Shown here: in pieces, positions 12,717 to 39,752 of the stretch
Numbering within the stretch: the first letter of the stretch is position 1
How the letters are laid out: each line of letters opens with the position of its first letter
NCBI RefSeq assembly: GCF_024362485.1
Contig: NZ_CP101456.1
Span: forward strand, 2,542,001-2,606,000
Origin: Natronobeatus ordinarius
GTDB lineage: Archaea; Halobacteriota; Halobacteria; Halobacteriales; Natrialbaceae
DNA length: 64,000 nt
Reading direction: 5' to 3'
Program-made: the position numbers and the translations under genes
Notes under the pieces: model-generated
Told to the model about the DNA's origin: nothing
Database searches by the model: none
What the model saw: the letters and a program-made list of their open reading frames with translations, nothing else

Positions 12717-12734
12717 AAACAAAATTGTTTTTAA
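12717..12734 (+). promoter_or_regulatory. TATA-like box with overlapping palindrome before cbiT
   Basis: A perfect inverted repeat, aaacaa (12717-12722) and ttgttt (12725-12730) with an AA centre, overlaps the TATA-like tttttaag (12727-12734). The box lies about 27 bases before the cbiT ATG at 12758, as in leaderless haloarchaeal transcripts. A protein bound to the palindrome would block the promoter, so this is a candidate repressor site for cobalamin genes. Confidence 0.45.
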
Positions 12735-12757
12735 GCATCGGTCGAAGGGTACGGATA

Positions 12758-14852: not shown

Positions 14853-15089
14853 TCGCCGAGAGCCGACACTGGTACACCGAGTCGACCACGCGTCGGCTAC
14901 GACCGTTGCCGTGTCCGGAACCGACGCCGGGTGATCGCTGCCCCGTTCGAACGACCACCGGTAACACGGAACAGCGATCCGTATCAAGCCCCCGTTCCAT
15001 TGGCCGCAAACTGTCTACCGATAATCCATAACAGGTGTAATTATATACAGCCAGTAATTACCGTCTATTAGCACCGGAAATTCGATCAT
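14853..15089 (+). promoter_or_regulatory. Spacer with TATA-like region before tfb
   Basis: The end of this spacer is much more AT-rich than the rest. The TATA-like aattatata lies about 50 bases before the first possible start codon of the TFB gene (15090). The AT-rich boundary immediately after cbiF marks the left side of the block that separates the two cobalamin gene groups. Confidence 0.35.
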
Positions 15090-16019
15090 ATGGATAATAT
15101 AATGAGTGAACTTAATCCTTGTGCCGAATCTACCGATGATTGTACAGCAGCGGACACCTGCGAAGCGTGTGGGGGTTCACTCCAGACGGTCGACGGCGAG
15201 AAAGTCTGCTCCGAGTGCGGCCTTGTCGACACTGTCGACCAACTCGACCGCGGCCCGGAGTGGCGGCGTTCGGAATCGGAGACGAACGTTCGACGGACGG
15301 GTGCACCAGTGGATCGCTCACGGCACGACAATGGGCTGACGACACGGATCGGCTTCGGTCCGGACAGCGACGTGAGCGGCCCGAATGCACGCCAGCTGGT
15401 ACGCATGCGTCGGCTGCACAACCGTGCACGATTCGCCTCGAAAGCCGAGCGAAACAAAGCGTACGGCTTCACGGAAATTCGACGAATCGTCTCGGCGCTG
15501 TCGCTGCCGACGACCGTCAAAGATCAGTCCTGTTCGCTCTTCGATTCGGCACAGACCGAAAACCTGCTCTGTGGCCGATCAATCGAAGGATTCTCGGCCG
15601 GCGCGGTGTACGCGGCCTGTCGCGTTCAGTCGATCGCCCGGACGATCGAAGAGGTCGTGACGGTCGCACGAGCCGACCGAGACGAACTGCTCGTGGCCTA
15701 CGACGCACTCAACCAGGAACTCGGCCTCCCTGTGGGACCGATCTCGCCGCTCGAGTACCTGCCTCGATATGCCACGGCGCTCGGCCTCGACAGCGAGTGT
15801 GAGGCGCGCGCCCGGGAGTACGCAAAAGCGTTCGTCGAGTCGGAGTCCCTGGGCGGGAAGAACCCAAGCGGCGTCGCCGCAGCCTGTCTGTACGTCGCCG
15901 CCTCCGAGCAGGGCGTCGACGTGAGACAGGCCGATGCGGCCGACGTAGCCGACGTCTCGCGGATGACGATCCACTCGAGGATATCGGAGCTAAAGCAGCT
16001 TCGCTATAGTAACAACTGA
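15090..16019 (+). CDS. Transcription initiation factor IIB (TFB) paralogue
   Basis: This 309-residue protein has the full TFB layout. A zinc ribbon has two CxxC pairs (CEACGG and CSECGL, about residues 28-50), the B-finger has LDRGPEWRR, and two cyclin-fold repeats follow (about 110-200 and 205-305, with GRSIEGFSAGAVYAACR and LGGKNPSGVAAACLYVAASE). TFB recruits RNA polymerase to TATA/TBP promoters and recognises BRE. Haloarchaea carry many TFB copies with distinct target sets. The C-terminal recognition helix (VADVSRMTIHSRISELKQLR) differs from the common TFB form (TEVTIRNRYKEL), so a specialised promoter set is plausible. A second Met at 15102 is an alternative start. The last codons (TAT AGT AAC AAC TGA) lie in a palindromic element. 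Confidence 0.93.
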   Translation: MDNIMSELNPCAESTDDCTAADTCEACGGSLQTVDGEKVCSECGLVDTVDQLDRGPEWRRSESETNVRRTGAPVDRSRHDNGLTTRIGFGPDSDVSGPNARQLVRMRRLHNRARFASKAERNKAYGFTEIRRIVSALSLPTTVKDQSCSLFDSAQTENLLCGRSIEGFSAGAVYAACRVQSIARTIEEVVTVARADRDELLVAYDALNQELGLPVGPISPLEYLPRYATALGLDSECEARAREYAKAFVESESLGGKNPSGVAAACLYVAASEQGVDVRQADAADVADVSRMTIHSRISELKQLRYSNN

Positions 16020-16234: not shown

Positions 16235-17533
16235 ATGATCGCCATCGCTGGATCGAAAGGGGGGTGTGGAACGTCGACGGTAACGCTCGGACTCGCCGAA
16301 GCGTTCGCCCGTGCGGACACGCCAGCGCTCGCCATCGATGCGGATAGACAGCTCCCGAACCTCCACGTAATGGCTGGTCTCGATCGGGAGCCGACGCTCG
16401 CCGAAATCGACGACGGCGTCGATCTTCGTGAGGTCGCCCAACCACACCCGCGATCGCCGACTGTCGGCGTCGTCCCCGCGCCGAAGCCGTCCGATCCGTT
16501 CGAATTCGACTCACTCGACGATTACCTCGACGCCGATGGGACACAGGTGTTGATCGACTGCCCCTCCGGTGCCGGCCCGGACGTCGTCGATCCGTTGCGT
16601 CAGGCAGCGGGGGTAATCGTCGTCGGTGCAGACACCGAGCGGAGCCTCGAGGCCGCAGAAACGACGATCGAGATGGCTCGTCGACTCGGCGTCCCCGTCT
16701 ACGGGGCCGTTCTGAACCGCCGTTCAGAAATCCCATCGCGGGCGACCCGCTGGGAGGGCGTCCCACTGTTAGGCTGTGTTCCCGATCGGACATCGCCACT
16801 GGTGAACGACGAGGTCACAGCGGCGTTCGACGAAATCGTCGAGCGACTGTCTGCCCAGTCGCCGGTCGACCGAGCACCACCGGCGTTCGCCGGCGATCGA
16901 CTGCCCACCGGGACGAACGAACTCGACCGCCGACTCGGTGGCGGGATCCCTGCCGGATCCGTCGTTGCACTCGTAGCCGATCCGGCCAGCCAGGCAGAAC
17001 AGCTCCTCTATCGCGCCACCGACGTCCGCGGAACGCTCTACCTCTCGACGGAACGATCGCGCAACGGCGTCCGTCGCGCGATGGAGTCTGCGTCGGTCAC
17101 ATCGGGTGCCCCTACGATCAGGAGTGTAACCGGTGAAGACGCGCTCGAGGAGGCGACCGCGCTGATCGAGAAGCTCCCGGACGCGGCGAATCTGATCGTC
17201 GACCCGATCGACGGGTTAGAGAGACGAAACAGGTCGGCGTACGTCTCGTTCCTCGACGCGCTTACGGCGCGGATAGACGAGACCGACGGCCTCGCTATCT
17301 TGCACTGTCTCGACGACTCCCCGAATCGATCGGCAACGCTCCGCGCCGCCGATGCGGTGTTCGAACTCGAGGCCGTTGCGCCCGGCGTCGGCACCGACGT
17401 CGAACACTACCTGACGGTGCCCAAGTACCGTCCGGACGCGGGATTCACCGAAACGATCGAACTCGAGTTCGCCGACCGAAACGGCGTGGCGCCGATCGAA
17501 TCACCGCCGAACCCGAACGAAGAGAACCGATGA
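16235..17533 (+). CDS. MinD-like / KaiC-like fusion protein with degenerate P-loops
   Basis: This 432-residue protein has two ATPase-like domains. Residues 1-210 resemble MinD/ParA (MIAIAGSKGGCGTSTVTLGL, ALAIDADRQLPNLHVM, LIDCPSGAGPDVVDPLRQA), but the second Walker A lysine is replaced (KGGCGTST instead of KGGxGKST). Residues 220-430 resemble the KaiC/RadA superfamily entry (LPTGTNELDRRLGGGIPAGS), but the P-loop region (VADPASQAEQ) has no GxxxxGK[ST]. So ATP hydrolysis is doubtful in both halves, and a regulatory or scaffold role is more likely. It overlaps the next gene by four bases and forms a likely operon with two membrane RCK_C-type proteins. The function is unknown. Confidence 0.8.
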   Translation: MIAIAGSKGGCGTSTVTLGLAEAFARADTPALAIDADRQLPNLHVMAGLDREPTLAEIDDGVDLREVAQPHPRSPTVGVVPAPKPSDPFEFDSLDDYLDADGTQVLIDCPSGAGPDVVDPLRQAAGVIVVGADTERSLEAAETTIEMARRLGVPVYGAVLNRRSEIPSRATRWEGVPLLGCVPDRTSPLVNDEVTAAFDEIVERLSAQSPVDRAPPAFAGDRLPTGTNELDRRLGGGIPAGSVVALVADPASQAEQLLYRATDVRGTLYLSTERSRNGVRRAMESASVTSGAPTIRSVTGEDALEEATALIEKLPDAANLIVDPIDGLERRNRSAYVSFLDALTARIDETDGLAILHCLDDSPNRSATLRAADAVFELEAVAPGVGTDVEHYLTVPKYRPDAGFTETIELEFADRNGVAPIESPPNPNEENR

Positions 17534-18681
17534 CCGAGCTTCCATACGAGTCACTGGTCGGCGTTTCGTACGGCCTGCTGACTGGATTCGTTCCCGCCAT
17601 ACTAGTCGGACTGACCGCGATCGGCGCGACCGTCTTTCGGAACCGTCCGCTTCCCGCCGGTGCCGGCGTCGTCACCGTCCCGGTCGCGGTCGCACTCACC
17701 GTCGCGATGGGCGTCATCGACCCAGGAGCGGGCCTCTCACACGGGTATCGGTTCTCGATGGTGGCGATCGTCACCGGCCTGCTCGGCGTCGTCGCGGTGA
17801 GCTACGGTAACCGGATCGCCACCGAATTTCCACAGGACCGGACGGTTCCGATCGTCAGGGGACAGGTCCTCTCGGCGGACGCGATCGACGCCGTCGACGC
17901 GATGGGGCACGTGACGATCCGTCCGACCGGTTCGATCCGCGAGTTCGAGGGCTACCCGCCGTTACCCCCCGCGCTGCGCACCGCCCTCGAGGACGGTGCC
18001 TGGCGGTTCCCGGCCGACCTCCAGCTCTCGGAACTGGAGCGTCGGCTCGAGTGTCGTCTCGAGGCCGAGTACGACCTCTCGCTCGTCGGGGTCTCGATCG
18101 ACGGACGCGGCCGGGCGACGATCGCTGCTGCCCCACCGGCCAAAGGTGTGGCCACGACGCTCCCGGCGGGAACCCGGGCGGTGACGGTGTCCGGACTCCT
18201 CCCGACCGGGATCGAACCCGGCGACACCGTCGCGGTCGAGACCGGTGAAACTGCCGTCCGCGCGACGGTGCTCTCGGTCGGGACGGAGGTCGACGGGTCG
18301 GATCCGGCCGAGGAGCGTCGATCGGACGCCGACACCCTCGCGACGACCCATCGAACCGCGGATCTCGGTTTCGACGGTGGAGAGGGGCAACTCACGGTCG
18401 CCGTCGAGACGTCCGACGCCGGACGGTTGCTCGAGGGAACGAGACACCGTATCGCAGTCCTGCCGAATGGTGACAACCACGAGTTCGAGGTGGCAGCGCT
18501 CCTTGAAGCGGCCGGTCAGCCCGTAACCGTGATCGACGGTCCCGATGCCGATTCGATCACATCCATGGAGGTGCTCGGGGTGCACGACGACGAGGGGTGG
18601 CAGTTCGCCGTCGGTGACGAACACGCAACCGGGGGAGATCGGGCGTTCGTCGCAGGACCCAAGCAGGTGGTGAGCGAGTGA
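17530..18681 (+). CDS. Membrane protein with RCK_C (TrkA-C)-like domains, paralogue 1
   Basis: This 383-residue protein starts with three hydrophobic helices (about residues 10-35, 40-63 and 75-95), then a soluble region. The soluble part includes a segment conserved with the next gene (ECRLEAEYDLSLVGVSIDGR), a domain (AVTVSGLLPTGIEPGDTVAV) and a C-terminal domain whose end (FAVGDEHATGGDRAFVAGP) resembles the final strands of RCK_C ligand-binding domains of K+ channels and transporters. No pore or TrkH-like partner is present, so it is not itself a transporter. It overlaps both neighbours by about four bases, which indicates translational coupling. Confidence 0.7.
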   Translation: MTELPYESLVGVSYGLLTGFVPAILVGLTAIGATVFRNRPLPAGAGVVTVPVAVALTVAMGVIDPGAGLSHGYRFSMVAIVTGLLGVVAVSYGNRIATEFPQDRTVPIVRGQVLSADAIDAVDAMGHVTIRPTGSIREFEGYPPLPPALRTALEDGAWRFPADLQLSELERRLECRLEAEYDLSLVGVSIDGRGRATIAAAPPAKGVATTLPAGTRAVTVSGLLPTGIEPGDTVAVETGETAVRATVLSVGTEVDGSDPAEERRSDADTLATTHRTADLGFDGGEGQLTVAVETSDAGRLLEGTRHRIAVLPNGDNHEFEVAALLEAAGQPVTVIDGPDADSITSMEVLGVHDDEGWQFAVGDEHATGGDRAFVAGPKQVVSE

Positions 18682-19832
18682 TGCTCGACCGTCTGGACCT
18701 CATCGGGCTGTTGCGAGAGGCCGCAATCGGCGTCGCCGGCACGACGCTGGTAGCGGCAGTCGTCGGCCTGCTTGTGGCAGCGGGATACCGGTGGATGACG
18801 ACCAGGGCATCCCCGGACGGGATGCCAGTTCTGGTCGGCCTCTCGGTAGTTACCGGCTACCTCTGGTACGTCGTTCTCGGCTCGAGCACCCTCGTCGGAG
18901 ACGTTCCCCTCGATCACCAGTTCAGCGCTGGCTATCTGCTCGCGGTGTTCGCGAGTAGTGGGTTCGTCGCGTCAGCCAGTGGCCGCCTCGGCGACCGAAT
19001 CGCCTGTCAGGTCGTCGACCTCACGAGAATCGACGAACGCGGTGAGGCGGCCGACGCGGTTCGATCCGCGAGGCTCGCCATCGACGTCGGGCTTCCCGAG
19101 ACCATCGAAGACGCGGACGGCTATCGGCCGATCGATGCGTCGGTGCGTCGATCGCTGTCCGGAACGACCGTCAGGCTACCACACGGACTCGCCGTCTCGG
19201 AGCAATCCAACCGGATCGAACGCCACCTCGAGCGCGACTACGACGTCGGGTACGCCAACGTCACGATGGCAGACGATGGAACCGTCGACCGCGTCCTCGT
19301 CGGCCACCGACCCACCGGCCTGGGTTCGATGCTTCCGCCACGGACCGTCGCGCTCGCGATCAGCGCCGATCCCGCACACGACGCGACCCTCGGCGATCCA
19401 GTCGAGATCTGGTCGGCCGAGGAGGAGAGCCGACTGGTCGCGACCGGGACACTCCGGAGCGCCAACGGTTCGATCGCGACGGTCATCGTCGACGCCGACG
19501 CCGCAGCTTCGCTCTCGGCCGACGAACGCTACCGACTGGTCACCCGTCCCGACGATCCAACCGACGGGTACGAATTCGCCTCGACACTCCGGACGGTCGA
19601 CGAGACGGTCGATGCAACGACCGTCGAACCCGACGGACCACTCGATGGCGAGTTCGCCGGCTGGTTACCCGGACAGGTGCTCGTTATCGACCGCGACGGC
19701 GACCTCCTCACCCTCCCCGACGACAGCGAAACGCTGACCGCGGGTGATGAGCTCTGGCTCCTCGCCTCTCCGGACGACCTGGAAGCGTTCGACGGCGCGC
19801 CGGCCGACGGAGAGCCGACCGGATCGGTGTAG
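18681..19832 (+). CDS. Membrane protein with RCK_C (TrkA-C)-like domains, paralogue 2
   Basis: This roughly 383-residue protein has the same plan as the gene before it: N-terminal helices (about residues 12-35, 50-70 and 80-98), then the shared segment ERHLERDYDVGYANVTMADD, a barrel-like part (PPRTVALAISADPAHDA), and a C-terminal RCK_C-like end (LPDDSETLTAGDELWLLASP, then DDLEAF). RCK_C domains bind small ligands, such as cyclic dinucleotides or ions, in other proteins. A GTG at 18678 is an alternative start; the ATG at 18681 overlaps the previous stop codon by one base. The two paralogues may form a heteromer in the membrane, which is an inference. Confidence 0.7.
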   Translation: MLDRLDLIGLLREAAIGVAGTTLVAAVVGLLVAAGYRWMTTRASPDGMPVLVGLSVVTGYLWYVVLGSSTLVGDVPLDHQFSAGYLLAVFASSGFVASASGRLGDRIACQVVDLTRIDERGEAADAVRSARLAIDVGLPETIEDADGYRPIDASVRRSLSGTTVRLPHGLAVSEQSNRIERHLERDYDVGYANVTMADDGTVDRVLVGHRPTGLGSMLPPRTVALAISADPAHDATLGDPVEIWSAEEESRLVATGTLRSANGSIATVIVDADAAASLSADERYRLVTRPDDPTDGYEFASTLRTVDETVDATTVEPDGPLDGEFAGWLPGQVLVIDRDGDLLTLPDDSETLTAGDELWLLASPDDLEAFDGAPADGEPTGSV

Positions 19833-19835
19833 AAG

Positions 19836-19843
19836 TTTAAATT
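19836..19843 (+). promoter_or_regulatory. TATA-like box before the 121-residue protein and minD
   Basis: The sequence tttaaatt stands in a GC-rich region, about 26 bases before the ATG at 19866. The spacing fits a leaderless transcript. It suggests that the last two genes of the MinD/RCK_C block can be transcribed separately from the first three. Confidence 0.45.
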
Positions 19844-19865
19844 TCGGTACGATCACAGTAGCAGT

Positions 19866-20231
19866 ATGGTGGAGGTCGAGACGAACGCCGAACGGACGAG
19901 GGAGGTTACGAGAGTCGCGGTCGTGGTCAGGAACACGCAGTCGACGCCACAGACCGTCCGTCTGCGAAGCCTGCTCGACGGCCCCGTCTGGCCGCCACGC
20001 CGTAACGGCGTCGTCGATCCACGGTGGAACGACGGCGTCTGGGAGACGACGATTCGACCGGATCGCAGCCGCGGCATCGGTTTCGCCAGCCCGGCGCAGC
20101 CGGTCGATCCCGCAGTCGAGGTCGTCTCGAGTGACCGCCGCGTGGCCGTCGGCGATCGGACACCGGAGACGGTGCTCGCCGACCTCGACGACTGGCGCCC
20201 GACGAACGAGGTGCTCGAACGAGAGCGATGA
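19866..20231 (+). CDS. Conserved-looking hypothetical protein next to MinD
   Basis: This 121-residue soluble protein has no recognised catalytic motif. Its sequence suggests a beta-sandwich: VAVVVRNTQSTPQTVRLRSL near residue 18, then PVWPPRRNGVVDPRWNDGVW and IRPDRSRGIGFASPAQP. This resembles extracellular or accessory beta-domains, but there is no signal peptide. It overlaps the intact MinD gene by four bases (ATGA), so the two proteins are probably made in fixed proportion and may act together. I recall similar small genes beside minD in other haloarchaea, but I could not check this. Confidence 0.65.
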   Translation: MVEVETNAERTREVTRVAVVVRNTQSTPQTVRLRSLLDGPVWPPRRNGVVDPRWNDGVWETTIRPDRSRGIGFASPAQPVDPAVEVVSSDRRVAVGDRTPETVLADLDDWRPTNEVLERER

Positions 20232-20926
20232 TCGTCGCCGTCTCGGGAGGAAAAGGCGGCGTCGGCAAATCGACGACGGCGTGGAACCTCGGCCGCGAAC
20301 TCGACGCCGTCGTCGTCGACGCCGATCTGGCGACCGCCGACCTCCCACCAGGTACTGGCCCCGACCTCCACGACGTCCTCGCCGGCCGCGTCGAGCCGGT
20401 CGACGCGATCGAAGACGTCGGTCCGGTGACGCTCCTCCCCTGTGGGCGAACGCTCTCTGGAGCCCGTGCGTCGAACCTCGAGGAACTCGGTCGGGTACTC
20501 CGACGCGTCGAACGGGAGTGGGGGCGCGTCGTCGTCGACTGTCCCGCGGGACTCGCCCGTGACGTCGGAATCGAACTCCGGAACGCCGACCTCGCAGTGC
20601 TCGTCACGACGCCGAACGAGGCAGCACTGGTCGACGCGTTCCGGGCGTACAGACTCACAGAAGCGCTCCAGACGCCGGTCGCATCCGCCGTTCTGAACAA
20701 GACCGACCGCGAGGCCCACGAGGAGGTCGCTGACCGACTCGGTCGAGCACTCGGCGTCGAGATAACGCGCGTCGATCGTCAACAGGCGGTCGCCGACGCA
20801 CAGGCCCGGTGGATGCCAGTCCGCGATCACGCGCCCGACGCACAGGCAGTCGAGGCGTTCCGATCGGTCGCGGACCGACTCGAACGAGCACAGGCACGGC
20901 TCTCCGGACGCTCCACTTCCGGCTGA
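20228..20926 (+). CDS. MinD/ParA-family ATPase
   Basis: This 232-residue protein has an intact deviant Walker A motif (VSGGKGGVGKSTTAWNLG, residues 4-21), a switch I-like Asp (VVDADLATADLP), Walker B (VVVDCPAGLARD) and the conserved VLVTTPNEAALVDAFRAYRL and SAVLNKTDRE segments of MinD. Such ATPases cycle between membrane-bound ATP dimers and free monomers to position cell components. Haloarchaeal MinD paralogues have roles in placing motility and chemotaxis structures. Here the context is two membrane RCK_C-like proteins and a degenerate MinD-KaiC fusion. The next gene block encodes a pilus-like system, but a link is only a guess. Confidence 0.85.
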   Translation: MIVAVSGGKGGVGKSTTAWNLGRELDAVVVDADLATADLPPGTGPDLHDVLAGRVEPVDAIEDVGPVTLLPCGRTLSGARASNLEELGRVLRRVEREWGRVVVDCPAGLARDVGIELRNADLAVLVTTPNEAALVDAFRAYRLTEALQTPVASAVLNKTDREAHEEVADRLGRALGVEITRVDRQQAVADAQARWMPVRDHAPDAQAVEAFRSVADRLERAQARLSGRSTSG

Positions 20927-21136: not shown

Positions 21137-23452
21137 TCACCGGCGCCGAGCGACGGCGGCGAGCGCGAGCGCAACCGCGAGGACGGCAGCAACGGCGGTG
21201 AGTCCAGGGATACTGTCGTCGTCGGCGCCGGCATCGTCACCGGTTGCCATCGCAGCGCTGTCGCCAGCCGCTTCGACGGCGACACTGACCTCACGCTCGT
21301 CGTCCGGCGACGCGATTCCGACGGTGACGTCGCCGTCGGTGTCGAACGTGACGTCGAACTGGATGGGTTCGGAATCGCCCGAATCCAGCGTGACTGTCTG
21401 CGTGTCCTGAACCTCGCCGTCGATCCTGAGCTCGAGTTCGGCGTCGTCCTCGCCGCCGCCGACGTTCGTCACCGTTGCCGAAACCGTCTCCTGCTCACCC
21501 TCCTCGACCGACTCGGGGGCGTCGAGGTCCTCGATTTCGAATTCGGCCGGCTCGAGAATCTCGACGATACCAGTCTCCGTCTCGTTGTGCCGTTCGACGA
21601 CGTGCGTCGCCGTGCCCTGCTCGTCGTGTGCGTAGCTGATCGGGTCGGCCGAGCCGTCGGCGTCGATCTCGACGACCTCCGTCGCGACGCGGTCGCCGTC
21701 GACGCGGAGTTCGACGGTCTCGAGGACAGGCGTGTCGAGGTCGGTCGCGAACTCGAGGCCGATCTCGTACTCGCTGCCTTCGGCGGCTTCGTCGGGGAGT
21801 TCGATCGCCTCGAGGGAGACGTTTTCGGCGTCGACGACGGTCAGTTCACCGTAAGGCTCGTCGTCGACCGTCACGGTTCCGGACTCGGCTGCGGTCCACT
21901 CGATTGACTCGGTCGTTTTTTCGTCGGCCCCGAGCTGGAGCTGCGTCGAGGTGACGTCTTCGTCACCCACCGCAACGCTGACGCGTTCGGAGCCGGGACC
22001 GCCGGTGTTCTCGTAGGTCGCATCGAGGCCGACGGTCGTGCCCTCGACGGCAGCCTCGACGTCGAACTCGGCGTCGACGAACGCGATGTTCGGCGGCTCG
22101 AGCACTTCGACGGTAACGGTATCGCTCTCGCCAGCGACGGTCGCCGTGATCTCGGTCTCACCGACCGAGTTCGCCTCGAGCACCCCCTCCGAGACGGACG
22201 CGACGGCTGCTTCGGAGTCGTAGTCGGCGACCTCCGAAGCGGTAACCGTCGAGCCGTCGTCGAGCGTGAGTTCGACGGTGACGGGAGTCGTTTCGCCCTC
22301 GCCGATGGCGGATTGGGAGACCGACAGGTCGACGGCTTCGACCTGCCACTCGAGGACCGGATACTCGTCGGTGGCCGTCCAGAAGTTGTCGAAGTCGAAG
22401 TCCACGTTCCGTTCGGCGTCGGCACCCGTCAGTTCGGTGGTTCGAAGACCGGTTCCGAAGTCGCTATCTTCACCGGTCGAGTCGAGAGCGGAGCGCCTCG
22501 TGTCGTAATAGACGTTCGAGACGGTCCCATCACTCACGTACCTGGAATGGTATTCGGCGCCGACCAACGCCCCGGTCGTATCATCGCCAGTGACGTCCAC
22601 GGCGACGTATCCGTCGCTGACGGGACCGGCGAACCAGCCGACCAGACCGCCGACCTCACTCTCTCCCGAGACGGTGCCAGTTACGTAGCTGTTTCTCACT
22701 CCGTCGTCTGCATTGTTCCACCCGATTAGTCCGCCCACTCGATCGTTCCCTTCCACAGTCACAGTTGCGTACGAGTGGACGATCGATTGCTCGCTGTTGT
22801 CGCCGACCAGTCCACCGACATACTCGTCGCCGGTCACCTCGACGTCGGCCATCGACCGTTCGATCGTGGCGCCCTCATCTCCGCGAGCGACGAGACCTGC
22901 CGTCCAGCGGTCCTGTCCCTCGACGGACCCGGTCACCGAGACTGACTTGATCGTGCCGTGGTTGTCTGCAACGGCGCCGGCAACGTTGCGATCACTGCTG
23001 AACACATCGACGTTCTCGAACCGAACGTTCTTGATTGTGCCATCGTTCTCACCGAACGGGGCCACGTGAGATTCGCCGGGTCGGTCGATAGCGAGGTCAG
23101 TGATGGTGTGACCCTGTCCATCGAACGTGCCACTGAACGGCGTTCTCGTTCGATCCCCGTACTCGCCATCGCCGATCGGTTCGAAGCCAGCGCCAGCGTT
23201 CCAGCGGTCGGTTTCACTGGCGTCGATATCGTTCCCGAGAACGTAGTGGGCCTCGAGATCCTGGTTCATCGCCTGTAACTCTTCGACAGTGGTTATGACG
23301 TAGGGGTCGTCTTCGGTACCGTCACCGTCCAGCGATTCCAGTTCAGCGGCCTCGTCGGCGGCTGCCGAGCCGGCGAGGACGAGACCGATCCCGAGTGCGA
23401 CGACTACGAGAGCCACCAGTCGCGTCCCGTCGTCCGTAATCAGCGGGGCCAT
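21137..23452 (-). CDS. GLUG-motif surface protein with PGF-CTERM-like anchor
   Basis: This roughly 771-residue secreted protein has several parts. An N-terminal signal sequence (LVALVVVALGIGLVLAGSAA) is followed by a beta-helix-like region with GLUG motifs (EYVGGLVGDN, DRVGGLIGWNN, EVGGLVGWFAG) at about residues 85-320. Ig-like or bacterial Ig-2-like modules come next (about 370-450, SVSQSAIGEGETTPVTVELT). CARDB-like modules follow at about 450-540 and 650-730, and the protein ends in a Thr-poor linker, a PGLTAVAAVLAVALALAAVA helix and RRR. The last part resembles the PGF-CTERM signal processed by archaeosortase A, with Leu instead of Phe. It is probably a cell-surface adhesin or matrix protein. 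The start at 23452 lies about 26 bases after a TATA-like acaataag on the minus strand. Inverted mobile elements flank the gene. Confidence 0.83.
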   Translation of the reverse strand: MAPLITDDGTRLVALVVVALGIGLVLAGSAAADEAAELESLDGDGTEDDPYVITTVEELQAMNQDLEAHYVLGNDIDASETDRWNAGAGFEPIGDGEYGDRTRTPFSGTFDGQGHTITDLAIDRPGESHVAPFGENDGTIKNVRFENVDVFSSDRNVAGAVADNHGTIKSVSVTGSVEGQDRWTAGLVARGDEGATIERSMADVEVTGDEYVGGLVGDNSEQSIVHSYATVTVEGNDRVGGLIGWNNADDGVRNSYVTGTVSGESEVGGLVGWFAGPVSDGYVAVDVTGDDTTGALVGAEYHSRYVSDGTVSNVYYDTRRSALDSTGEDSDFGTGLRTTELTGADAERNVDFDFDNFWTATDEYPVLEWQVEAVDLSVSQSAIGEGETTPVTVELTLDDGSTVTASEVADYDSEAAVASVSEGVLEANSVGETEITATVAGESDTVTVEVLEPPNIAFVDAEFDVEAAVEGTTVGLDATYENTGGPGSERVSVAVGDEDVTSTQLQLGADEKTTESIEWTAAESGTVTVDDEPYGELTVVDAENVSLEAIELPDEAAEGSEYEIGLEFATDLDTPVLETVELRVDGDRVATEVVEIDADGSADPISYAHDEQGTATHVVERHNETETGIVEILEPAEFEIEDLDAPESVEEGEQETVSATVTNVGGGEDDAELELRIDGEVQDTQTVTLDSGDSEPIQFDVTFDTDGDVTVGIASPDDEREVSVAVEAAGDSAAMATGDDAGADDDSIPGLTAVAAVLAVALALAAVARRR

Positions 23453-23561
23453 CACCCGGTTTGATTCCCGACCGTACTTATTGTTTTACGGCAATGATTG
23501 CCACGGAGTAACAGTAATCATGGCTGATCCTGGTCGCCAGTTACTGCCGTGACGACAAGCG

Positions 23562-23809: not shown

Positions 23810-24301
23810 CTACGTCGAGGACACGAAGCCGTCGGTCTCCGGCGGCTCGACGACCACGACCGGCTCACCGTTTTCGTCCGGCAAGAGCACCAGCCTGAGA
23901 CGCTGCGTCCCGGTACCGCCGAGTTCCGTCGTCCGGTTGTCCGTCGGGTCACGGTAGACGATTCGCTGATCGACGAGCTCCTCGTTCGTGGTCCCGTCGT
24001 CCAGGACGTATCTGGCGATACTCGCGTCTGCCTCCTCGAGCGGCTCGATCTCGACGTGTGAGACGCCTTCGGTCGTGAGCGACCGCGCCGGGATCGACAC
24101 CTCGACGACCCGCTGTGGATCCGGGTGTCCCGTCGGCGAAAGTTCCTCGTGCTCCGCTAACGCGACGGCGTTCCGCTCGATGTCGGCAATCGCCGTCTGC
24201 ACCTGCCGTTCGGTGTTGTCGCTTCCACCGGCGTCGATCGCGACCGCGGCGAGCGACAGGATTGCCACCGTGAGTAAGGCTGCCAGCACGTAGCGGATCA
24301 T
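23810..24301 (-). CDS. Single-helix extracytoplasmic protein of the pilus-like cluster
   Basis: This 163-residue protein starts with a hydrophobic helix (YVLAALLTVAILSLAAVAID, residues 4-23), then a conserved-looking soluble part (DNTERQVQTAIADIERNAVA, EVSIPARSLTTEGVSHVEI, TQRLRLVLLPDENGEPVVVV). The N-terminal helix followed by an outside domain resembles pilin-like subunits, but there is no clear class III signal peptidase site. It overlaps the upstream coiled-coil gene by four bases. I infer that it is a minor subunit or assembly factor of the TadA/TadC system encoded nearby on the other strand. Confidence 0.6.
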   Translation of the reverse strand: MIRYVLAALLTVAILSLAAVAIDAGGSDNTERQVQTAIADIERNAVALAEHEELSPTGHPDPQRVVEVSIPARSLTTEGVSHVEIEPLEEADASIARYVLDDGTTNEELVDQRIVYRDPTDNRTTELGGTGTQRLRLVLLPDENGEPVVVVEPPETDGFVSST

Positions 24302-24951
24302 GAAAGCCGGGACCGGAGTGCGTCGAGCAAGCCGTCGTTCGTTCCGCCATCACCCTCCGAACGGGCTGGTTCAGACGGCTCGTCCTCCTCGAGTGCTGAG
24401 TCGACTGCCGACTGGTTCGCGGTGGACGACGGTCTGTCTACACCGTCGTCGACGGTCGCTCGTGACCCGCGATCCGAGCCGAAGAGCTCGCTCACTGACT
24501 GCTCCGGCGTCGGTTTCCCGGCCTCGCCTGCCTCGAACCCGAGCGTGACGCTCTCGTCGCGTTCGGTACCGACAGACCCGTTGCGTTCAGCGACGGTCTC
24601 TTCGTCACGTTCTCGCTCGCCCTCGAGAATCCCGCCCTGAAGGTCGTCGAGTTCGACCTCGAGCGCCTCCATCCGACGCTCGAGTCGGTCGACCGTCGCG
24701 ACCGCCGTGGCTGCCTGTCGCTCCACGTCGTCGTTGATCGACTCGACGTTCCCGACGTATCCCTCGATCGACTGGACCGCGGCCTCGAGATCGGCGAGTC
24801 GGCGCTCGTGCTCCTCGAGACGCGTTTCGAGTGTCGAGACAGTCTCCGACAGTGAGGCCAGCGTCGCCAGTTCGTCGAGCGCCACGTCGCCGTCGACGAC
24901 GACGCGCTCGACGGCCGACAGACGCTGCTCGAGCCGATCGACGTCGGTCAT
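24298..24951 (-). CDS. Coiled-coil protein of the pilus-like cluster
   Basis: This 217-residue soluble protein has a long coiled coil over about residues 1-115 (VDRLEQRLSAVERVVVDGDV, TLETRLEEHERRLADLEAAV, ATVDRLERRMEALEVELDDL), followed by an acidic disordered tail ending in a short amphipathic segment (NDGLLDALRSRLS). No enzyme motif is present. It sits between the HerA-like ATPase gene and the single-helix protein gene on the same strand, so a scaffolding role for the membrane machinery is possible. A TATA-like tttaaat on the minus strand lies about 26 bases before the start. Confidence 0.65.
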   Translation of the reverse strand: MTDVDRLEQRLSAVERVVVDGDVALDELATLASLSETVSTLETRLEEHERRLADLEAAVQSIEGYVGNVESINDDVERQAATAVATVDRLERRMEALEVELDDLQGGILEGERERDEETVAERNGSVGTERDESVTLGFEAGEAGKPTPEQSVSELFGSDRGSRATVDDGVDRPSSTANQSAVDSALEEDEPSEPARSEGDGGTNDGLLDALRSRLS

Positions 24952-25049: not shown

Positions 25050-26105
25050 TCACTCGAGTCCTGCCACTTCGCGTGCACTCGGGCTTCCTCCACCGTGTGG
25101 CGTATCACGGAACCGGATCTGTGCGGCGTGGATCGTCTCGGTTGCGTCGTCGATCACGACCACCTCCCCGGGATCGGTCGGCAGTCGCTCGTCGAGCGAG
25201 TCGTTCATGTACGTCGGCTGGGCGGTCGACAGCGCCTCGAGGTCTGCCTGTGCGGTCAGGCGGTGAGAGATCAACACGTCGGACTGTGAGATCGCGATCT
25301 CGGAGACAGCGCTCGGTCGCTGGGTCGCGAGCACGAGGCTGACTCCCGGGGCGCGACCGCGCGTGAGGATCGTGTGCAGCGCCGACTCCGCGACGCCGTC
25401 GAAGAACGTGTGGGCCTCGTCGATCAGGAGCCACGGGAGCCGATCGATCGTCTCGTCAACCCGCGCACGGTAGAGCGCTTCACCGATGCCGCGACAGACC
25501 GCGTTCATCGGTGCCGTGTCGAGTCCGGAGACGTCCACGACGGAGACGGCCGTGCTGGCCAGAGTTTCGGCATCGAGGCCGTCGGGATCGAACACCCCCC
25601 ACGACTGGGCTAGCGAGACGTGGTTGCTCGCCGCCCGTCTGTCGACGTCCGGTGCATCGGCCTCCTCGATGTGCACCTGCATCTCCTCGAGCGTTCGCGT
25701 TTCCTGTGCTGCCTGCCAGACGAGCCCGCCAGCGCCGCTCTCGGGTGACAGACCGAGCAGTGCACACCACGACCGGGGATCGAGCACGTCGGCCGAGATC
25801 GCCGGCTCCGTGATGAGCTCGACGGGAACCGGTTCTCCGTCTGCTGGATCGTCGAGCGTCGAGAAGACGCCCATCGGGTCGACGATCACCGGTGCGACCC
25901 CTGGTGCGCGCGCGAGTTCCTCCGCTACGACACCCAGCGTGAACGACTTGCCGTAGCCGCGTTTGCCGACGATCAGCATCGCGTGGGGTCCGTCCAGGTC
26001 GACGTACAACTCGGCACCTTCGCTGCCGTCGAGTGCGCGATACCGGCCCAGATGTCCCACCTGCGTCGGTTCGGCGTCGACCCCCCGACCGATGACAAAG
26101 CTCAT
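25050..26105 (-). CDS. HerA-like P-loop ATPase
   Basis: This 351-residue ATPase, counted from the Met at 26105, has Walker A GKRGYGKS (47-54), Walker B WLLIDEAHTFFD, and a sensor region LVLATQRPSAVSEIAISQSD (then ISHRLTAQADLEAL) that is typical of HerA/FtsK-like ATPases. Such enzymes form hexamers that move DNA, or peptides in secretion contexts. The gene is divergent from the pilus-like operon and next to genes for coiled-coil and single-helix proteins. I infer that it is a membrane-machinery ATPase rather than the HerA-NurA repair protein; no nurA is near. The start at 26105 is preferred to one 14 codons upstream because a TATA-like box occupies the upstream part. Confidence 0.82.
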   Translation of the reverse strand: MSFVIGRGVDAEPTQVGHLGRYRALDGSEGAELYVDLDGPHAMLIVGKRGYGKSFTLGVVAEELARAPGVAPVIVDPMGVFSTLDDPADGEPVPVELITEPAISADVLDPRSWCALLGLSPESGAGGLVWQAAQETRTLEEMQVHIEEADAPDVDRRAASNHVSLAQSWGVFDPDGLDAETLASTAVSVVDVSGLDTAPMNAVCRGIGEALYRARVDETIDRLPWLLIDEAHTFFDGVAESALHTILTRGRAPGVSLVLATQRPSAVSEIAISQSDVLISHRLTAQADLEALSTAQPTYMNDSLDERLPTDPGEVVVIDDATETIHAAQIRFRDTPHGGGSPSAREVAGLE

Positions 26106-26179
26106 ACCGATGCTTGCCCCGCGGTCGTACTTTAACTTTTGAGTCAAAATTTAAGTTAGATGGTGGGACCAACTGGGGC
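26106..26179. promoter_or_regulatory. Divergent promoters: HerA-like (-) and pilin-like gene (+)
   Basis: This 74-base spacer holds two AT-rich boxes in a GC-rich region. The sequence ctttaactttt at 26130-26140 lies about 30 bases before the HerA-like start on the minus strand. The sequence aaaatttaag at 26146-26155 lies about 29 bases before the ATG at 26180 on the plus strand. Both starts would be leaderless. Confidence 0.5.
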
Positions 26180-26692
26180 ATGGGTACTGATCAACGAACT
26201 GAACCGACGAACCGCTCGCCCAGATTCAGCCGATCGTTAGCCGACGACGACCGTGCGATCGAAGGGTTGCCGATCAGACTCGTGATCGCGTTGATCGTCG
26301 GTGTAGTCTCACTCGGGATCATGATGCAGATCCTGGGTGGAATCGATACGTTCGAAAGCGATACCGAAGTAGAGGTCGAGTTCGAAAGCGCGGAGCTCGA
26401 CCTTTCTGACGGCGACGATACGAGCGCCTTCAGCGTGTACGTCGTCGACGAAGACGGGAACAACGTCACCGATGCGAGAGTCATCGCGACGGCGGGCGAC
26501 GCGCGGATGGACGGCGCGATAGTAGAACACACTGGAGAGGATTCTAACGAAGCAGAGTTCACGTTCGCAGACGAGAACATCCGACTCGCACCAGATCAGG
26601 CCGTTGGCACCATCGAATTCGAAGTTCGGCCACCCACGGGCACGGACTGGACGGACGACGAAGCAAACGACGAGCTACTGGTGGTCGAATAA
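26180..26692 (+). CDS. Pilin-like single-helix surface protein
   Basis: This 170-residue protein has a polar charged N-terminus (about 35 residues, ending SLADDDRAIEG), one long hydrophobic helix (LPIRLVIALIVGVVSLGIMM, then QILGGI) and an extracytoplasmic beta-rich domain (VEVEFESAELDLSDGDD, AFSVYVVDEDGNNVTDARVI). This is the layout of archaeal type IV pilin-like proteins, although the usual cleavage site is not obvious. It leads the gene group with the TadA-like ATPase and TadC-like membrane protein that follows. The upstream TATA-like box supports the start. Confidence 0.65.
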   Translation: MGTDQRTEPTNRSPRFSRSLADDDRAIEGLPIRLVIALIVGVVSLGIMMQILGGIDTFESDTEVEVEFESAELDLSDGDDTSAFSVYVVDEDGNNVTDARVIATAGDARMDGAIVEHTGEDSNEAEFTFADENIRLAPDQAVGTIEFEVRPPTGTDWTDDEANDELLVVE

Positions 26693-26915: not shown

Positions 26916-28835
26916 ATGTCACTGGAGGGGGGCGCCCGTTCGATTCACGACTTCCTCTCGACGATCGGTCTCGACGGCCTGCTCGGCGACGACGATTCGA
27001 CTGGACACTGTGACTGTGAGCTAGCGTTCGACGACCGCACGCTCCTCGTCGACGCCTCGGCGTGTAGCGGCGATCTCGTCCAGTCGGCGGACTGTCGCCA
27101 GTCCGTCGTCGAGGCACTCACAGCGCGCGAGGCGGAGGCGATCGTCGTCCATTCGAACGGGTTGAAACACCGATACGACGGCGACGGGGCGTCGATTCTC
27201 GGCGCAGCCGGCCGATTCGTCGAACTGCTCGGGGACCGAGACGACGTCCTCGCACGCGACGTCGCCCGGGACCCCCTCGGTGCGGCCAGAGGACTCGAGT
27301 CGAGAGTCGACGTGATTGGTGACGTGGCCGTCGAGTCCGGACTGCTCGAGGCCGTCGGCACGGCCACGGACTATCCCGACGCGTTCTCCCCGCTCGTCGG
27401 GTTAGCGATCGCGTACTACTACGTCGATCGATCGATCGACGAGACGGCCAGGCTCGTCGACGTTAGGGAGCTCGAATCCGGGAGTACGGTCCGAGTCTAC
27501 GAACGTGAGGGGCAACTCCCGTTGTACGCACTCGACGTCGTCGACCTCACGCTGTCGCCGGAACGACACGAGCTGCTCGTCGACGGCTACGAGGCGATCG
27601 CCGAGGGATGGGTCGACGGCGACCGGGCGCCGTCGCGGGCGATCGAGTACGTCTCGGAGGAGCCGGTCGACCCGACGGTGACGTCGATACTCGAGAAACA
27701 CACCGACGGCTACGGTATTTTAGAGGATCTGTTCGCCGATCCGGACGTGACCGACGTCTACGTCACCTCGCCGGTGGCGGCGAACCCGCTGCGGGTCGAA
27801 CTCGACGGGATGGCGATGGAGACGAACGTCCACCTCACCGAAACCGGAGCGAAGGCGCTCGCCTCGCGGGTCAGGCGGACCAGCGGTCGGGCGTTCTCAC
27901 GGGCGAAGCCGACGATCGACGCGACCGCGTCGCTGGCGAACGGCCGAGGACTCCGGATCGCTGGCGTCACGGATCCGGTCGCCGCGGGTATCGGCTTCGC
28001 CTTCCGTGAACAGTCGGACGACCGCTTCACGTTGCCGGCGCTCGTCGCCAACGACACGATGCCGCCCGAGGTGGCGGGCTTCCTCTCGACGGCGATCGAG
28101 CGGAACGCGGCCGCGCTGATCGCCGGCACCCGTGGCGCCGGGAAGACGACGCTGCTCGGGACGTTGCTCTACGAGGTACCGCCGGAGACGCGAACGGTGA
28201 TCATCGAGGACACGCCGGAGCTGCCGGTCGGGCCGCTCCAGTCGGTCGGTCGAGACGTCCAGGCACTCCGGACGGGCACCGGCGACGGTCCGGAGATCAG
28301 TCCGGCGGACGCGCTCCGAACAGCCCTCCGCCTGGGCGACGGTGCACTGGTCGTCGGTGAGATCCGTGGTGAAGAAGCGCGCGTGCTCTACGAGGCGATG
28401 CGCGTCGGTGCAAACGCGAACGCCGTCCTCGGAACGATCCACGGCGACGGTGCCGCCGACGTCTACGAGCGCGTCGTCTCTGATCTGAAAGTCGAGCCGT
28501 CGTCGTTCGGTGCCACCGATCTCGTCGTCACCGTCCAGGCGTACCGGACGCCCGAGGGACGCAGCCGACGCGTCGCCCGCGTCGAGGAAGTGCTCGGAAA
28601 CGGCGACGAGATCTGGTTCGAGCCGCTCTACGAACTCGACGGAACGCGAGCGGCGCCGACCGGACGGATCGATCGAGGGGAGAGCCAATTCGTGAACGCG
28701 ATGGCCGGTCCAACCGAGGCGTACGCCGACGTCAGGCGAGCGATCGCCGAGCGAACGGAGCTGATGGAAACGCTCGCAGCGGACGGACGAATCACACCGG
28801 CGGAGGTCGCCGCCGAGTACACCACCCGGAGGTGA
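26916..28835 (+). CDS. Type IV pilus / TadA-family secretion ATPase
   Basis: This 639-residue protein has the VirB11/PilB/TadA features: Walker A GTRGAGKTT (404-412), the Asp box TVIIEDTPELP, Walker B ALVVGEIRGEE and the His box GTIHGDG. The N-terminal about 240 residues form a separate domain with several Cys (CDCELAF, ASACSG, ADCRQS), which could bind a metal; this is seen in some archaeal pilus ATPases. It powers pilus or secretion assembly at the inner face of the membrane. It overlaps the next gene by four bases, as expected of an ATPase and platform pair. Confidence 0.9.
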   Translation: MSLEGGARSIHDFLSTIGLDGLLGDDDSTGHCDCELAFDDRTLLVDASACSGDLVQSADCRQSVVEALTAREAEAIVVHSNGLKHRYDGDGASILGAAGRFVELLGDRDDVLARDVARDPLGAARGLESRVDVIGDVAVESGLLEAVGTATDYPDAFSPLVGLAIAYYYVDRSIDETARLVDVRELESGSTVRVYEREGQLPLYALDVVDLTLSPERHELLVDGYEAIAEGWVDGDRAPSRAIEYVSEEPVDPTVTSILEKHTDGYGILEDLFADPDVTDVYVTSPVAANPLRVELDGMAMETNVHLTETGAKALASRVRRTSGRAFSRAKPTIDATASLANGRGLRIAGVTDPVAAGIGFAFREQSDDRFTLPALVANDTMPPEVAGFLSTAIERNAAALIAGTRGAGKTTLLGTLLYEVPPETRTVIIEDTPELPVGPLQSVGRDVQALRTGTGDGPEISPADALRTALRLGDGALVVGEIRGEEARVLYEAMRVGANANAVLGTIHGDGAADVYERVVSDLKVEPSSFGATDLVVTVQAYRTPEGRSRRVARVEEVLGNGDEIWFEPLYELDGTRAAPTGRIDRGESQFVNAMAGPTEAYADVRRAIAERTELMETLAADGRITPAEVAAEYTTRR

Positions 28836-30571
28836 CGACTGTGTCACTCACGACGACGGCCGTACACGTCCTCGCCAGGTTGTATCCCTACGACGTGGAG
28901 GCCAGCGACGAACTCGTCGAATCGATCCGGTTCATCGAGGCCCCGTACGAGGCCGAGACGATCGTCAGGGCGGGGTACGGTGCCGGAGTGGTCGGTGCAC
29001 TCGTGCCGCTTCCCCTGCTGTTGTACGACGTTCAGGTATTCTTCGTCGCGGTGTTCGTCCTCACCGGATCGCTCGCAGCGGTCCACGCCGTCCACTCGTG
29101 GCCACACCTGGCAGCGGCGTTTCGCCGGACTGAAGCGCTGGGGGAGACGCCGAACCTCATCGGCCGTGCGGTGTTACGGATGCAGATCCAGCCGTCGCTC
29201 GAGAACGCCGTGCGGTTCGCCGCGCGAACCGGCAACGGACCACTCTCACGGAGTCTCGGCGCCCATTTCAATCGAGCGAAGGGGACCCCCCACGCCGGAC
29301 TGCTGTCGTTCGCCGAAGAGTGGGCGGAGTACTTTCCGGCGCTCCGGCGGTCGTCGACGCTTCTCGCGACTGCACAGGACGCTCCAGAGGGCGAACGCGG
29401 TCGCACGCTCGACCGGTCGCTGTCCGCGATTCTCGATGGGACCCGCAGCCAGATGGCCGAGTTCACGGCGTCGATCCGGGCGCCGACGACCATGCTCTTC
29501 GCGTTCGGCATCCTGCTACCGCTCGCGCTCATCGCGCTCGTGCCCGCAGCCCCGCTGGCCGGAGTCAACCTCAACATCTGGATGTTCGTCCTCCTCTACA
29601 ACATCGTGTTACCGCTCTCGCTGATCGGCGCGGCACTGTGGCTGCTCGTCCGCCGGCCGGTCGCGTTCCCGCCGCCGAAAATCGACCGGGACCATCCGGC
29701 GCTACCGAACCGACTCTGGCTGCGATCCGGATGGGGGATCGTCGCCGGTGGCGTCGTCTACGTCACGGTAGCGGCGTTCGGCCCAGCGTATCTCTCGACG
29801 GTCGTCGCGTTCGGTGTCGGCCTCGGAGTCGCGTTACTTTCGGTTTACAGCCCGATCCTCACACTGCGTCACTACGTCAGAGACGTCGAAGAACACCTGA
29901 CGGACGCCCTGTACATCGTCGGGCGACAGGTCGCCGAGGGAGAATCCGTCGAATCAGCGATTGAACTGGCCGCCGACCGCGTTCCCGCAGAAACCGGCGA
30001 GGTATTCACCCACGCCGCCGGTGTCCAGCGTCGGCTTCACACGAGCGTCGAGGAAGCGTTCCTCGGAACGTACGGGGCGCTTCGGGACGTCCCCAGTCAG
30101 CGAGCACACAGCATGGCGGCGCTCCTCGCAATCGCCGGCGACGAGGGGAAGCCAGCCGGTCGAGCGATCGTCTCGATGGCCGACCACCTGGAAGAACTCG
30201 AGGAAGTCGAGGCGGAGACGAAACGCGCACTCGTGCAGGTGACGAGCACGCTCGACAACACCGCCGCCTATTTCGGACCGATGGTCGGCGGTGCGACCGT
30301 CGGAATGGCAGGGATGCTTACCGAGGAGAGTTTCAGCATGGCCGATGGGTTCGAGGACGCAACGACGCTGGCGGTCGACGGACTCGGGATCGTCGTGGCC
30401 GTCTACTTGATCCTCCTGGCGTTCATCATGACACCACTGTCGTACGCGCTTCGACACGGAATGGACCGGACGCTGTTCGGCTATCACATCGGTCGAACCC
30501 TGGTATCGTCGATGATCCTGTTCACGCTGACCGTCGCGCTGATCGACGTCGCCATCGTCGATATCGGTTGA
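28832..30571 (+). CDS. TadC/PilC-type integral membrane platform protein
   Basis: This 579-residue protein has two repeats of the type II secretion F domain, each with cytosolic helices followed by membrane helices. The first covers about residues 95-285 (MQIQPSLENAVRFAARTGN, MLFAFGILLPLALIALVPAA) and the second about 340-575 (YIVGRQVAEGESVESAIELA, VGGATVGMAGMLTE, GIVVAVYLILLAFIMTPLSY). It is the membrane platform on which the TadA-like ATPase acts. Translation starts at a GTG that overlaps the ATPase stop. The partner subunits are presumably the pilin-like genes that follow. Confidence 0.88.
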   Translation: MTTVSLTTTAVHVLARLYPYDVEASDELVESIRFIEAPYEAETIVRAGYGAGVVGALVPLPLLLYDVQVFFVAVFVLTGSLAAVHAVHSWPHLAAAFRRTEALGETPNLIGRAVLRMQIQPSLENAVRFAARTGNGPLSRSLGAHFNRAKGTPHAGLLSFAEEWAEYFPALRRSSTLLATAQDAPEGERGRTLDRSLSAILDGTRSQMAEFTASIRAPTTMLFAFGILLPLALIALVPAAPLAGVNLNIWMFVLLYNIVLPLSLIGAALWLLVRRPVAFPPPKIDRDHPALPNRLWLRSGWGIVAGGVVYVTVAAFGPAYLSTVVAFGVGLGVALLSVYSPILTLRHYVRDVEEHLTDALYIVGRQVAEGESVESAIELAADRVPAETGEVFTHAAGVQRRLHTSVEEAFLGTYGALRDVPSQRAHSMAALLAIAGDEGKPAGRAIVSMADHLEELEEVEAETKRALVQVTSTLDNTAAYFGPMVGGATVGMAGMLTEESFSMADGFEDATTLAVDGLGIVVAVYLILLAFIMTPLSYALRHGMDRTLFGYHIGRTLVSSMILFTLTVALIDVAIVDIG

Positions 30572-30666: not shown

Positions 30667-31611
30667 ATGGATCTGGAGGCACCAGCCGACGCGTGGTACG
30701 TCTACGTCGCAGTAGCGATCGTCAGTATCGCGCTCGCTGGCCTCGCGCTGGGAGTCTCGACGGGACCTCCCCCAGACGCAGAACAGGCAGCGAACACCAT
30801 CGAAGGAGCAACCGCGAGTGAACTCACAGCCAGCGCCTCTTACGACCACGATGCGGACGTGGTCACGATCAACCGCCAGACCATCACCATGGAGAACGAC
30901 CACGGAACGTCACACGCGAGTTTCTCGTACGGAATCGTCGTCCCAGTGAACGGTGACGAACGGTTGGAGAACCTCGTCCACGGTGCGGAATTTGCAGACG
31001 AGTACGAGACGGAACTTCAGGACGGTGATACGCACGCGTTCGCCGTATTCAAACAGGACGTCGAAGCAGCGTTCGACGAGAACACCGGCAACGCCCTCCA
31101 GGCGAACGGCGAACTCCACGCCCGACAGCTCACGATCGACGCCGGAATCGACGAACTCGAGCCGTTGTCGGAGTCTGCCGAAGTGGAGGTCACAGAGACC
31201 GATAGCTTGCCGGGCGAAGGCGAGATCAGAGACAACGTTCGGGAAGTGACGTTGCGATACGATGGCGTCGAAGGCCGAGACGTTCACTTCGAGGTGACAG
31301 GCGACTACGCCGGCTCCGGCGAGTTCGAGGAATCGGACAGCGAACGATTCACGACCGGTTCGGGGGAGATCCCGATCGAGATCAGCTCCTCGAACCTCCG
31401 CCAGCCTGGCGACGAACCCGTCACGTTCAGCGTTACGTTCGAGGAAGACGGCGAACTGACCGAAGAGACGTGGGAGGACGACGACCTGGAGATCGACGAT
31501 CTGGAGGTATGGGAAAACGAAATCGAACGAGAAGTCGAGTTCGATCACGACCACCTGCTAATCGGCCTCAACGACGGAGGGAACTACTATGTCACACTCG
31601 TCATCGTCTAG
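30667..31611 (+). CDS. Pilin-like extracytoplasmic protein, first of four
   Basis: This 314-residue protein has one N-terminal hydrophobic helix (YVYVAVAIVSIALAGLALGV, residues 11-30) and an extracytoplasmic, acidic, mainly beta-domain (ASYDHDADVVTINRQTITME, then VREVTLRYDGVEGRDVHFEV). No enzyme motif is seen. A TATA-like atttatatac lies about 30 bases before the start. The 3' end overlaps the next gene in a different frame by about 23 bases. I infer that it is a structural subunit of the pilus-like system. Confidence 0.65.
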   Translation: MDLEAPADAWYVYVAVAIVSIALAGLALGVSTGPPPDAEQAANTIEGATASELTASASYDHDADVVTINRQTITMENDHGTSHASFSYGIVVPVNGDERLENLVHGAEFADEYETELQDGDTHAFAVFKQDVEAAFDENTGNALQANGELHARQLTIDAGIDELEPLSESAEVEVTETDSLPGEGEIRDNVREVTLRYDGVEGRDVHFEVTGDYAGSGEFEESDSERFTTGSGEIPIEISSSNLRQPGDEPVTFSVTFEEDGELTEETWEDDDLEIDDLEVWENEIEREVEFDHDHLLIGLNDGGNYYVTLVIV

Positions 31612-32086
31612 AGCCCAGACCGAGCCGATCGCGGCGATCGTCGCCGTGTCGATGCTCGTCGTCGGTATCGGCATCTACGCGGTGTACGTTCAGGTCACCC
31701 TTCCCGGTACGTCGGAATCTACGACCGCCGACCGGGCGATCGATCGTATCTGGGACGAGATCGAAGAAGACGGTGTCTTTCACGCCACCCACGACGGTGA
31801 CGCCAAACTCTACGATAGAGTCACCGACCAGTCGCTTCCGGCCGGCGCGACCGTCTACGTTCGCGTGACCGCAATCGACGGGGGCGAGGAACGGACGGTC
31901 GCGGAGGCCGCCTTCCCGTCGGGATATCCACACGAGACGAGACCGGCAGAGGTCGCCGAACTCGAGCGCTACCTCGAGTCGGAGGGACCACCCGAGGACG
32001 CGTCCGTCGCCACGAGAACGATCCCGGTCGCCGTCGTCAGCTCGGCCGAGGTCCGGTCGGGGACGCTCGAGGTGTCGGTATGGTGA
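31589..32086 (+). CDS. Pilin-like protein, second of four
   Basis: This 165-residue protein begins with a short polar leader and a hydrophobic helix (RAQTEPIAAIVAVSMLVVGI, then GIYAVYVQVT). The sequence QTEPIAAIVAV is reminiscent of class III signal sequences of archaeal pilins and TadE-like proteins. The rest is a small soluble domain (TADRAIDRIWDEIEEDGVFH, GATVYVRVTAIDGGEERTVA). It overlaps both neighbours, so it is very likely co-translated with them. Confidence 0.68.
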   Translation: MSHSSSSRAQTEPIAAIVAVSMLVVGIGIYAVYVQVTLPGTSESTTADRAIDRIWDEIEEDGVFHATHDGDAKLYDRVTDQSLPAGATVYVRVTAIDGGEERTVAEAAFPSGYPHETRPAEVAELERYLESEGPPEDASVATRTIPVAVVSSAEVRSGTLEVSVW

Positions 32087-39747: not shown

Positions 39748-39752
39748 TAACC

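Follow-up and report, generated by a model that had tools for sequence, protein, structure and literature searches.

Five genes of the haloarchaeon Natronobeatus ordinarius, named here P1 to P5, raise the question of what two MinD-family proteins, two related membrane proteins and a small beta-rich protein could be doing together. They all lie on the forward strand at positions 16235-20926 of a 64,000-nt window (the whole stretch of DNA that was analyzed: NZ_CP101456.1, positions 2,542,001-2,606,000 of the forward strand, assembly GCF_024362485.1), and window coordinates are used throughout unless a contig or locus is named. An initial annotation had suggested that they may form one system of their own, with no described role. 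We find instead three sub-modules (P1; P2-P3; P4-P5) gathered within a type IV pilus (T4P) locus, and we consider it likely, with a probability of roughly 0.6, that P1-P5 make up the control part, in cytoplasm and membrane, of a distinct haloarchaeal T4P, serving its MinD-based assembly or positioning. With respect to a described role the initial annotation is supported in that our literature search gave no paper naming DUF7857, DUF7125, DUF7310, DUF7283 or DUF7286. The tight order is also as annotated, all five genes being present on one strand with 4-bp overlaps of the ATGA type at P1/P2, P2/P3 and P4/P5 and a 33-bp gap between P3 and P4. On inspection this gap contains a TATA-like TTTAAAT about 26 bp upstream of the P4 start, and therefore P4-P5 may also be transcribed from their own promoter.

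Linkage of the module to a type IV pilus

Profiles of the window genes were run over 19.5-kb loci of relatives, which had been picked by matches to P3 or to DUF7857 (the family of P4) and not by pilus genes. All five genes were found in 17 sampled loci, 16 of which also held T4P genes inside the same 19.5 kb; the exception, L066 of genome G182, has its T4P elsewhere (L129). Conservation of gene order in relatives, which the initial annotation had put forward as a check of its proposal, is thus borne out: six loci and the window share one identical order (seven in all), and the rest are rearranged, yet P2-P3 and P4-P5 remain paired in them. Outside Natrialbaceae, the family of N. ordinarius, P4-P5, the two P1 halves and P2-P3 sit at separate places. 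A search of viral contigs returned no relative.

The link to the pilus was also followed across 194 Halobacteria genomes by comparing the presence of DUF7857 with that of two T4P genes, DUF7286 and DUF7310 (counts are given as both/P4 only/other gene only/neither). For DUF7286 the counts were 144/2/7/41 (nine discordant genomes, p=3e-32) and for DUF7310 they were 142/4/5/43 (p=1e-32), these being Fisher p-values that overstate the independence of related genomes. Outside Natrialbaceae, where the loci are mostly unlinked, DUF7857 and DUF7286 gave 117/1/7/19 (p=5e-17). Switches between presence and absence of P4 and T4P agree inside several genera, with 14 out of 14 genomes of genus g2 concordant, for example. 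Among the seven genomes with DUF7286 and no DUF7857, one has an internal stop in DUF7286 (G100) and four have partial or weak matches to it (G067, G012, G125 and G056), which gives the impression of a decaying pilus locus. The control comparison of P4 with the archaellum gene ArlH gave p=0.037 overall and p=0.77 in Natrialbaceae, and no ArlH above the cut-off was found in the N. ordinarius genome. In regards to proximity, DUF7857 lies less than 20 kb from DUF7310 in 18 of the 26 Natrialbaceae genomes having both; in other families, P4-P5 is mostly found far from the core T4P operon. Taken together, the T4P link of the module is well supported.

In the window itself, the surroundings of the module are a T4P locus, with a PilB-type ATPase and six pilin-like genes that each encode one N-terminal transmembrane (TM) segment (domain calls on window proteins were made with Pfam). 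The first gene of the locus, upstream of P1, encodes a TFIIB-type transcription factor (TFB; 15090..16019, forward strand, TFIIB 1.2e-30). Downstream of P5, four genes lie on the reverse strand, namely a GLUG/CARDB surface protein with hydrophobic segments at its N- and C-terminus that is conserved in many module loci (21137..23455), the pilin-like DUF7311 with a single N-terminal TM segment (23810..24301, 1.9e-46), the coiled-coil protein DUF7310 of the T4P operon (24298..24951, 1.3e-30) and a HerA/DUF87-like ATPase (25050..26147, 1.8e-6). The remaining genes are on the forward strand and begin with a pilin-like DUF7382 protein bearing the conserved signal AIEGLPIRLVIAL (26114..26692, the true start probably lying further in). 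The PilB-type assembly ATPase (26916..28835, T2SSE 2.2e-17) has a cysteine-rich N-terminus (CxC..C..C), whose cysteines are kept in nearly all homologues with a readable N-terminus, and it is followed and overlapped by a probable PilC-type platform protein with many TM segments (28832..30571, T2SSF 0.0036, below the cut-off). Four further pilin-like genes with a single TM segment follow: DUF7283 (30667..31611, 2.1e-46), DUF7285 (31589..32086, 3.5e-26), DUF7284 (32080..33138, 6.9e-77) and the large DUF7286 (33202..36288, 2e-111). Cobalamin biosynthesis genes (TP methylases, CbiG, CobO) flank the locus at 11184-15000 and 37886-54400, and the pilus/MinD locus therefore looks inserted into a cobalamin cluster. 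In another family, P4-P5 is adjoined by a gene for a pilin-like protein bearing this signal (AIEGLPIRLVIAL), away from the main T4P operon (L091, genome G136). A rough search with an unvalidated pattern found no CetZ near T4P loci.

The MinD proteins and their partners

P4 (19866..20231, forward strand, 121 aa) is a small all-beta protein of the DUF7857 family (5.9e-22) with no TM segment, and it directly precedes P5 in every P4 locus examined. Its AlphaFold model, predicted for P4 alone, contains beta structure only at low confidence (pLDDT 57), and the fold matches were not significant. P5 (20228..20926, forward strand, 232 aa) is a MinD/ParA ATPase with an intact deviant Walker A motif, GGKGGVGKST, in agreement with the pattern KGGxGK[ST]. 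Judging from its sequence, the C-terminal tail of P5 could form an amphipathic helix of the membrane-targeting type, and the suggestion made in the initial annotation, that this MinD acts at the membrane, is plausible. Among its relatives of solved structure, archaeal MinD and bacterial site-determining proteins rank above bacterial FleN. In other families P4-P5 usually faces a TFB gene, and in Haloferax volcanii MinD1 is HVO_0225 (PMC11588486), beside the TFB HVO_0226 (PMC7714728). P5 is thus probably of the MinD1 type, as the synteny DUF7857-MinD-TFB suggests. The P5 homologue of G182 (L066:11125-11703), whose module lies apart from its pilus locus, has no P-loop lysine (GGKGGVGTST).

P1 (16235..17533, forward strand, 432 aa) consists of a MinD-like N-terminal half fused to a KaiC-like DUF7125 half (1e-44), and it also matched the NCBIfam CpaE-homologue model at 9e-10, under the cut-off. 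The term pseudo-ATPase, which the initial annotation applied to it, suits the window copy, where the N-terminal half reads KGGCGTST, with the P-loop lysine lost, and so departs from KGGxGK[ST], and the DUF7125 half has no P-loop. However, it does not suit the relatives, since the N-half lysine is intact in every one with a readable motif, which rules out P1 as a family-wide pseudo-ATPase. In other families the counterpart of P1 is two adjacent genes, MinD and DUF7125, which a stop codon separates (e.g. L102-L107). These neighbors are possibly the same pair as H. volcanii MinD2 (HVO_0595) and its conserved downstream neighbor HVO_0596, for which a contact with MinD2 has been predicted (PMC11588486).

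The P2-P3 pair and potassium channels

P2 (17530..18681, forward strand, 383 aa) has about three to four N-terminal TM segments, a cytoplasmic-type part and no Pfam match, and P3 (18678..19832, forward strand, 384 aa) combines TM segments at its N-terminus with a TrkA_C/RCK_C-like domain at its C-terminus (residues 333-371, 4.2e-6). The two are paralogues (hhalign E 1.5e-27). RCK_C-like ends had been ascribed to both; the likeness survives profile searches in P3, with the window protein at the cut-off and all 21 P3 homologues matching TrkA_C at E<=0.1, and fails in P2, where none of 20 homologues matches, so that only P3 has a detectable RCK_C domain and the reading with one on both proteins was rejected. 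The search of solved structures with the P2 and P3 profiles gave only weak beta-barrel and TrkA matches, and AlphaFold of P3 with P2 was of low confidence (P3 pLDDT 48).

The initial annotation had judged a K+ role unlikely because no transporter pore is present, and indeed none of the locus genes in the window encodes a pore or transporter domain. However, 10 of the 11 loci without pilus genes have a K+ channel next to the P2-P3 pair, and a pore and TrkA_N in the absence of TrkA_C were seen in all seven partner channels scanned from other genomes and in the channel of the window genome itself. Given these sister pairs and the missing TrkA_C of their channels, it would be unsafe to dismiss the K+ link. 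In the P3 tree the T4P-linked and channel-linked clades stand apart, with one change of context, in 100% of bootstrap trees, and two genomes (G005, G077) carry both kinds of pair. The window genome has a K+ channel (67% identical) at C1:73933-75090 (L122, L127) which keeps its MoaD-like neighbor with no P2-P3 there, while in relatives the pair sits between the channel and the MoaD-like gene; the pair in the window is the sole one in the N. ordinarius genome.

Haloarchaeal channels with TrkA_N and without TrkA_C were seen in L095-L101, in L134-L136 and in L122 of the window genome, with an adjoining TM pair, one member having RCK_C (L122 itself is without the pair), and such a channel with its TM pair is a possible split channel regulator. 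In such haloarchaeal K+ channels the RCK_C half seems to come from separate membrane proteins. On a plasmid of Natrinema sp. DC36 (L221), a P2-P3-like pair is found among cation:proton antiporter, CBS and ion transporter genes.

A proposed control part for the pilus and its known counterparts

Positioning or gating the machines of pili and flagella is a task of MinD-family proteins. In the reading that we favor, an ATP-dependent dimer of the P5 MinD would bind the membrane close to the motor of PilB and PilC, and P4, its constant partner, would contact and regulate P5 or link it to the pilus machine. P4-P5 could then decide on the site of pilus assembly, or on whether it takes place at all, as CpaE/TadZ acts around CpaF in the Tad pili of bacteria. 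P1 might assist as a second MinD-type protein and, since both P-loops of the window copy are degenerate, it would do so as a scaffold or regulatory partner. The P2-P3 pair, akin to a pair associated with K+ channels and apparently recruited by the pilus as a sensor, may tether the complex or relay an ionic or nucleotide signal to it. We put forward tentatively, as a minority possibility, a more specific version: a sensor pair of the channel type, once detached from its K+ channel, would have been joined to MinD ATPases, and through it K+, c-di-AMP or a similar ion or nucleotide would control when or where a dedicated haloarchaeal pilus is assembled, DUF7857 being a MinD partner of a new kind. 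What the data show are the genomic associations, from which the contacts, the signal and the control of pilus assembly are inferred. The general setting agrees with the association of T4P with FleN/MinD-family and TFB genes that has been proposed for archaea (PMC4858521), and CpaE dimers have been modeled as a ring around the CpaF motor (PMC13170226).

Several observations weigh against control of the pilus by the whole module. Genes of the P1 and P2-P3 types are found in T4P-less genomes too, their tie to T4P being limited to clustered loci, and even P4 is not near DUF7310 in 8 of the 26 Natrialbaceae genomes. The co-occurrence p-values are too small, given that the surveyed genomes are related, and the structure predictions of P4 (pLDDT 57) and P3 (pLDDT 48) are too weak for use. 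Deletion of all four MinDs of H. volcanii left growth and division normal, and the available part of that study reports no pilus role for MinD1 (PMC11588486).

Other explanations of the same data were considered. The module could be regulatory, the MinDs acting like FleN on pilus transcription or number, perhaps via TFB, with P2-P3 reporting the membrane or ion state. Most families have a TFB gene next to P1 or P4-P5, archaeal T4P loci commonly hold TFB homologues (PMC4858521) and FleN, ranked below archaeal MinD and the site-determining proteins, is among the solved relatives of P5, but domain searches gave no DNA-binding domain in P1-P5, and HVO_0226 serves as a constant reference mRNA (PMC7714728) and is thus not an obvious pilus-specific factor; we regard such a switch as possible, though unlikely. 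It is rather doubtful that P2-P3 is a K+ transport accessory which serves the channel at C1:74 kb in trans, its position in the pilus locus being incidental. The sister pairs beside channels that have a pore and TrkA_N and lack TrkA_C would favor it, as would the window genome keeping such a channel without a local pair and holding no other copy. However, the T4P-linked P3 proteins form their own clade and G005 and G077 hold both pairs, which argues that the T4P copy has specialized, and P2-P3 stays paired near pilus genes across different gene orders.

The clustering could also be operon hitch-hiking in an island, each gene having a separate job, as might be expected from a locus that splits a cobalamin cluster and from the P1-type and P2-P3-type genes found elsewhere without pili. 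This seems improbable, since the P2-P3 and P4-P5 pairs persist through rearrangement and since P4 and T4P co-occur even where they are unlinked, which hitch-hiking cannot account for. Finally, MinD2 and MinD4 affect the archaella of H. volcanii, and the MinDs of the module could position the archaellum and chemotaxis arrays as those two do. Since no ArlH exceeded the cut-off in the window genome and P4 shows no co-occurrence with ArlH in Natrialbaceae, this explanation is very improbable and was rejected.

Among the MinD paralogues of haloarchaea, only some have a known function (archaella, cell shape, CetZ1). To our knowledge, no MinE-like partner is known for haloarchaeal MinDs. Here a MinD is constantly accompanied by DUF7857 and tracks one specific pilus through gains and losses across the class, which suggests a directly testable job for the MinD1-type protein. 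The general association of MinD with T4P in archaea has already been proposed (PMC4858521); what is new is the strict link between DUF7857 and T4P, the set of five genes and the relationship of P2-P3 to a family found beside channels.

Compared with the archaeal T4P that have FleN/MinD-family arCOG00589 genes, the locus shares a MinD-family ATPase and a TFB near PilB/PilC, whereas in the accessible part of that survey MinD is a general, mostly stand-alone regulator, with no DUF7857-MinD pair, MinD-DUF7125 fusion or RCK_C pair described (PMC4858521). It also shares the cysteine-rich PilB N-terminus and the coiled-coil partner with subclade 4F of the same survey and, judged on PilB and DUF7310, would fit that subclade. 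As in CpaE/TadZ (PMC13170226), a MinD/ParA-type ATPase belongs to a TadA/TadC-like pilus machine, and atypical ATPases also occur in that family; however, CpaE/TadZ has a receiver domain and an amphipathic helix, whereas here the MinD half of P1 continues into DUF7125 and the partner of P5 is DUF7857, and domain searches gave no N-terminal receiver-like domain in P1 or P5. Next to H. volcanii MinD2-HVO_0596, P1 may be seen as a MinD fused to the gene behind it. With regard to the RCK_C/TrkA_C of K+ channels and transporters, the C-termini of P3 and all its sampled homologues match TrkA_C and their sister pairs adjoin K+ channels, but here the domain is carried by a separate, pore-less membrane protein, while the partner channels keep TrkA_N without TrkA_C.

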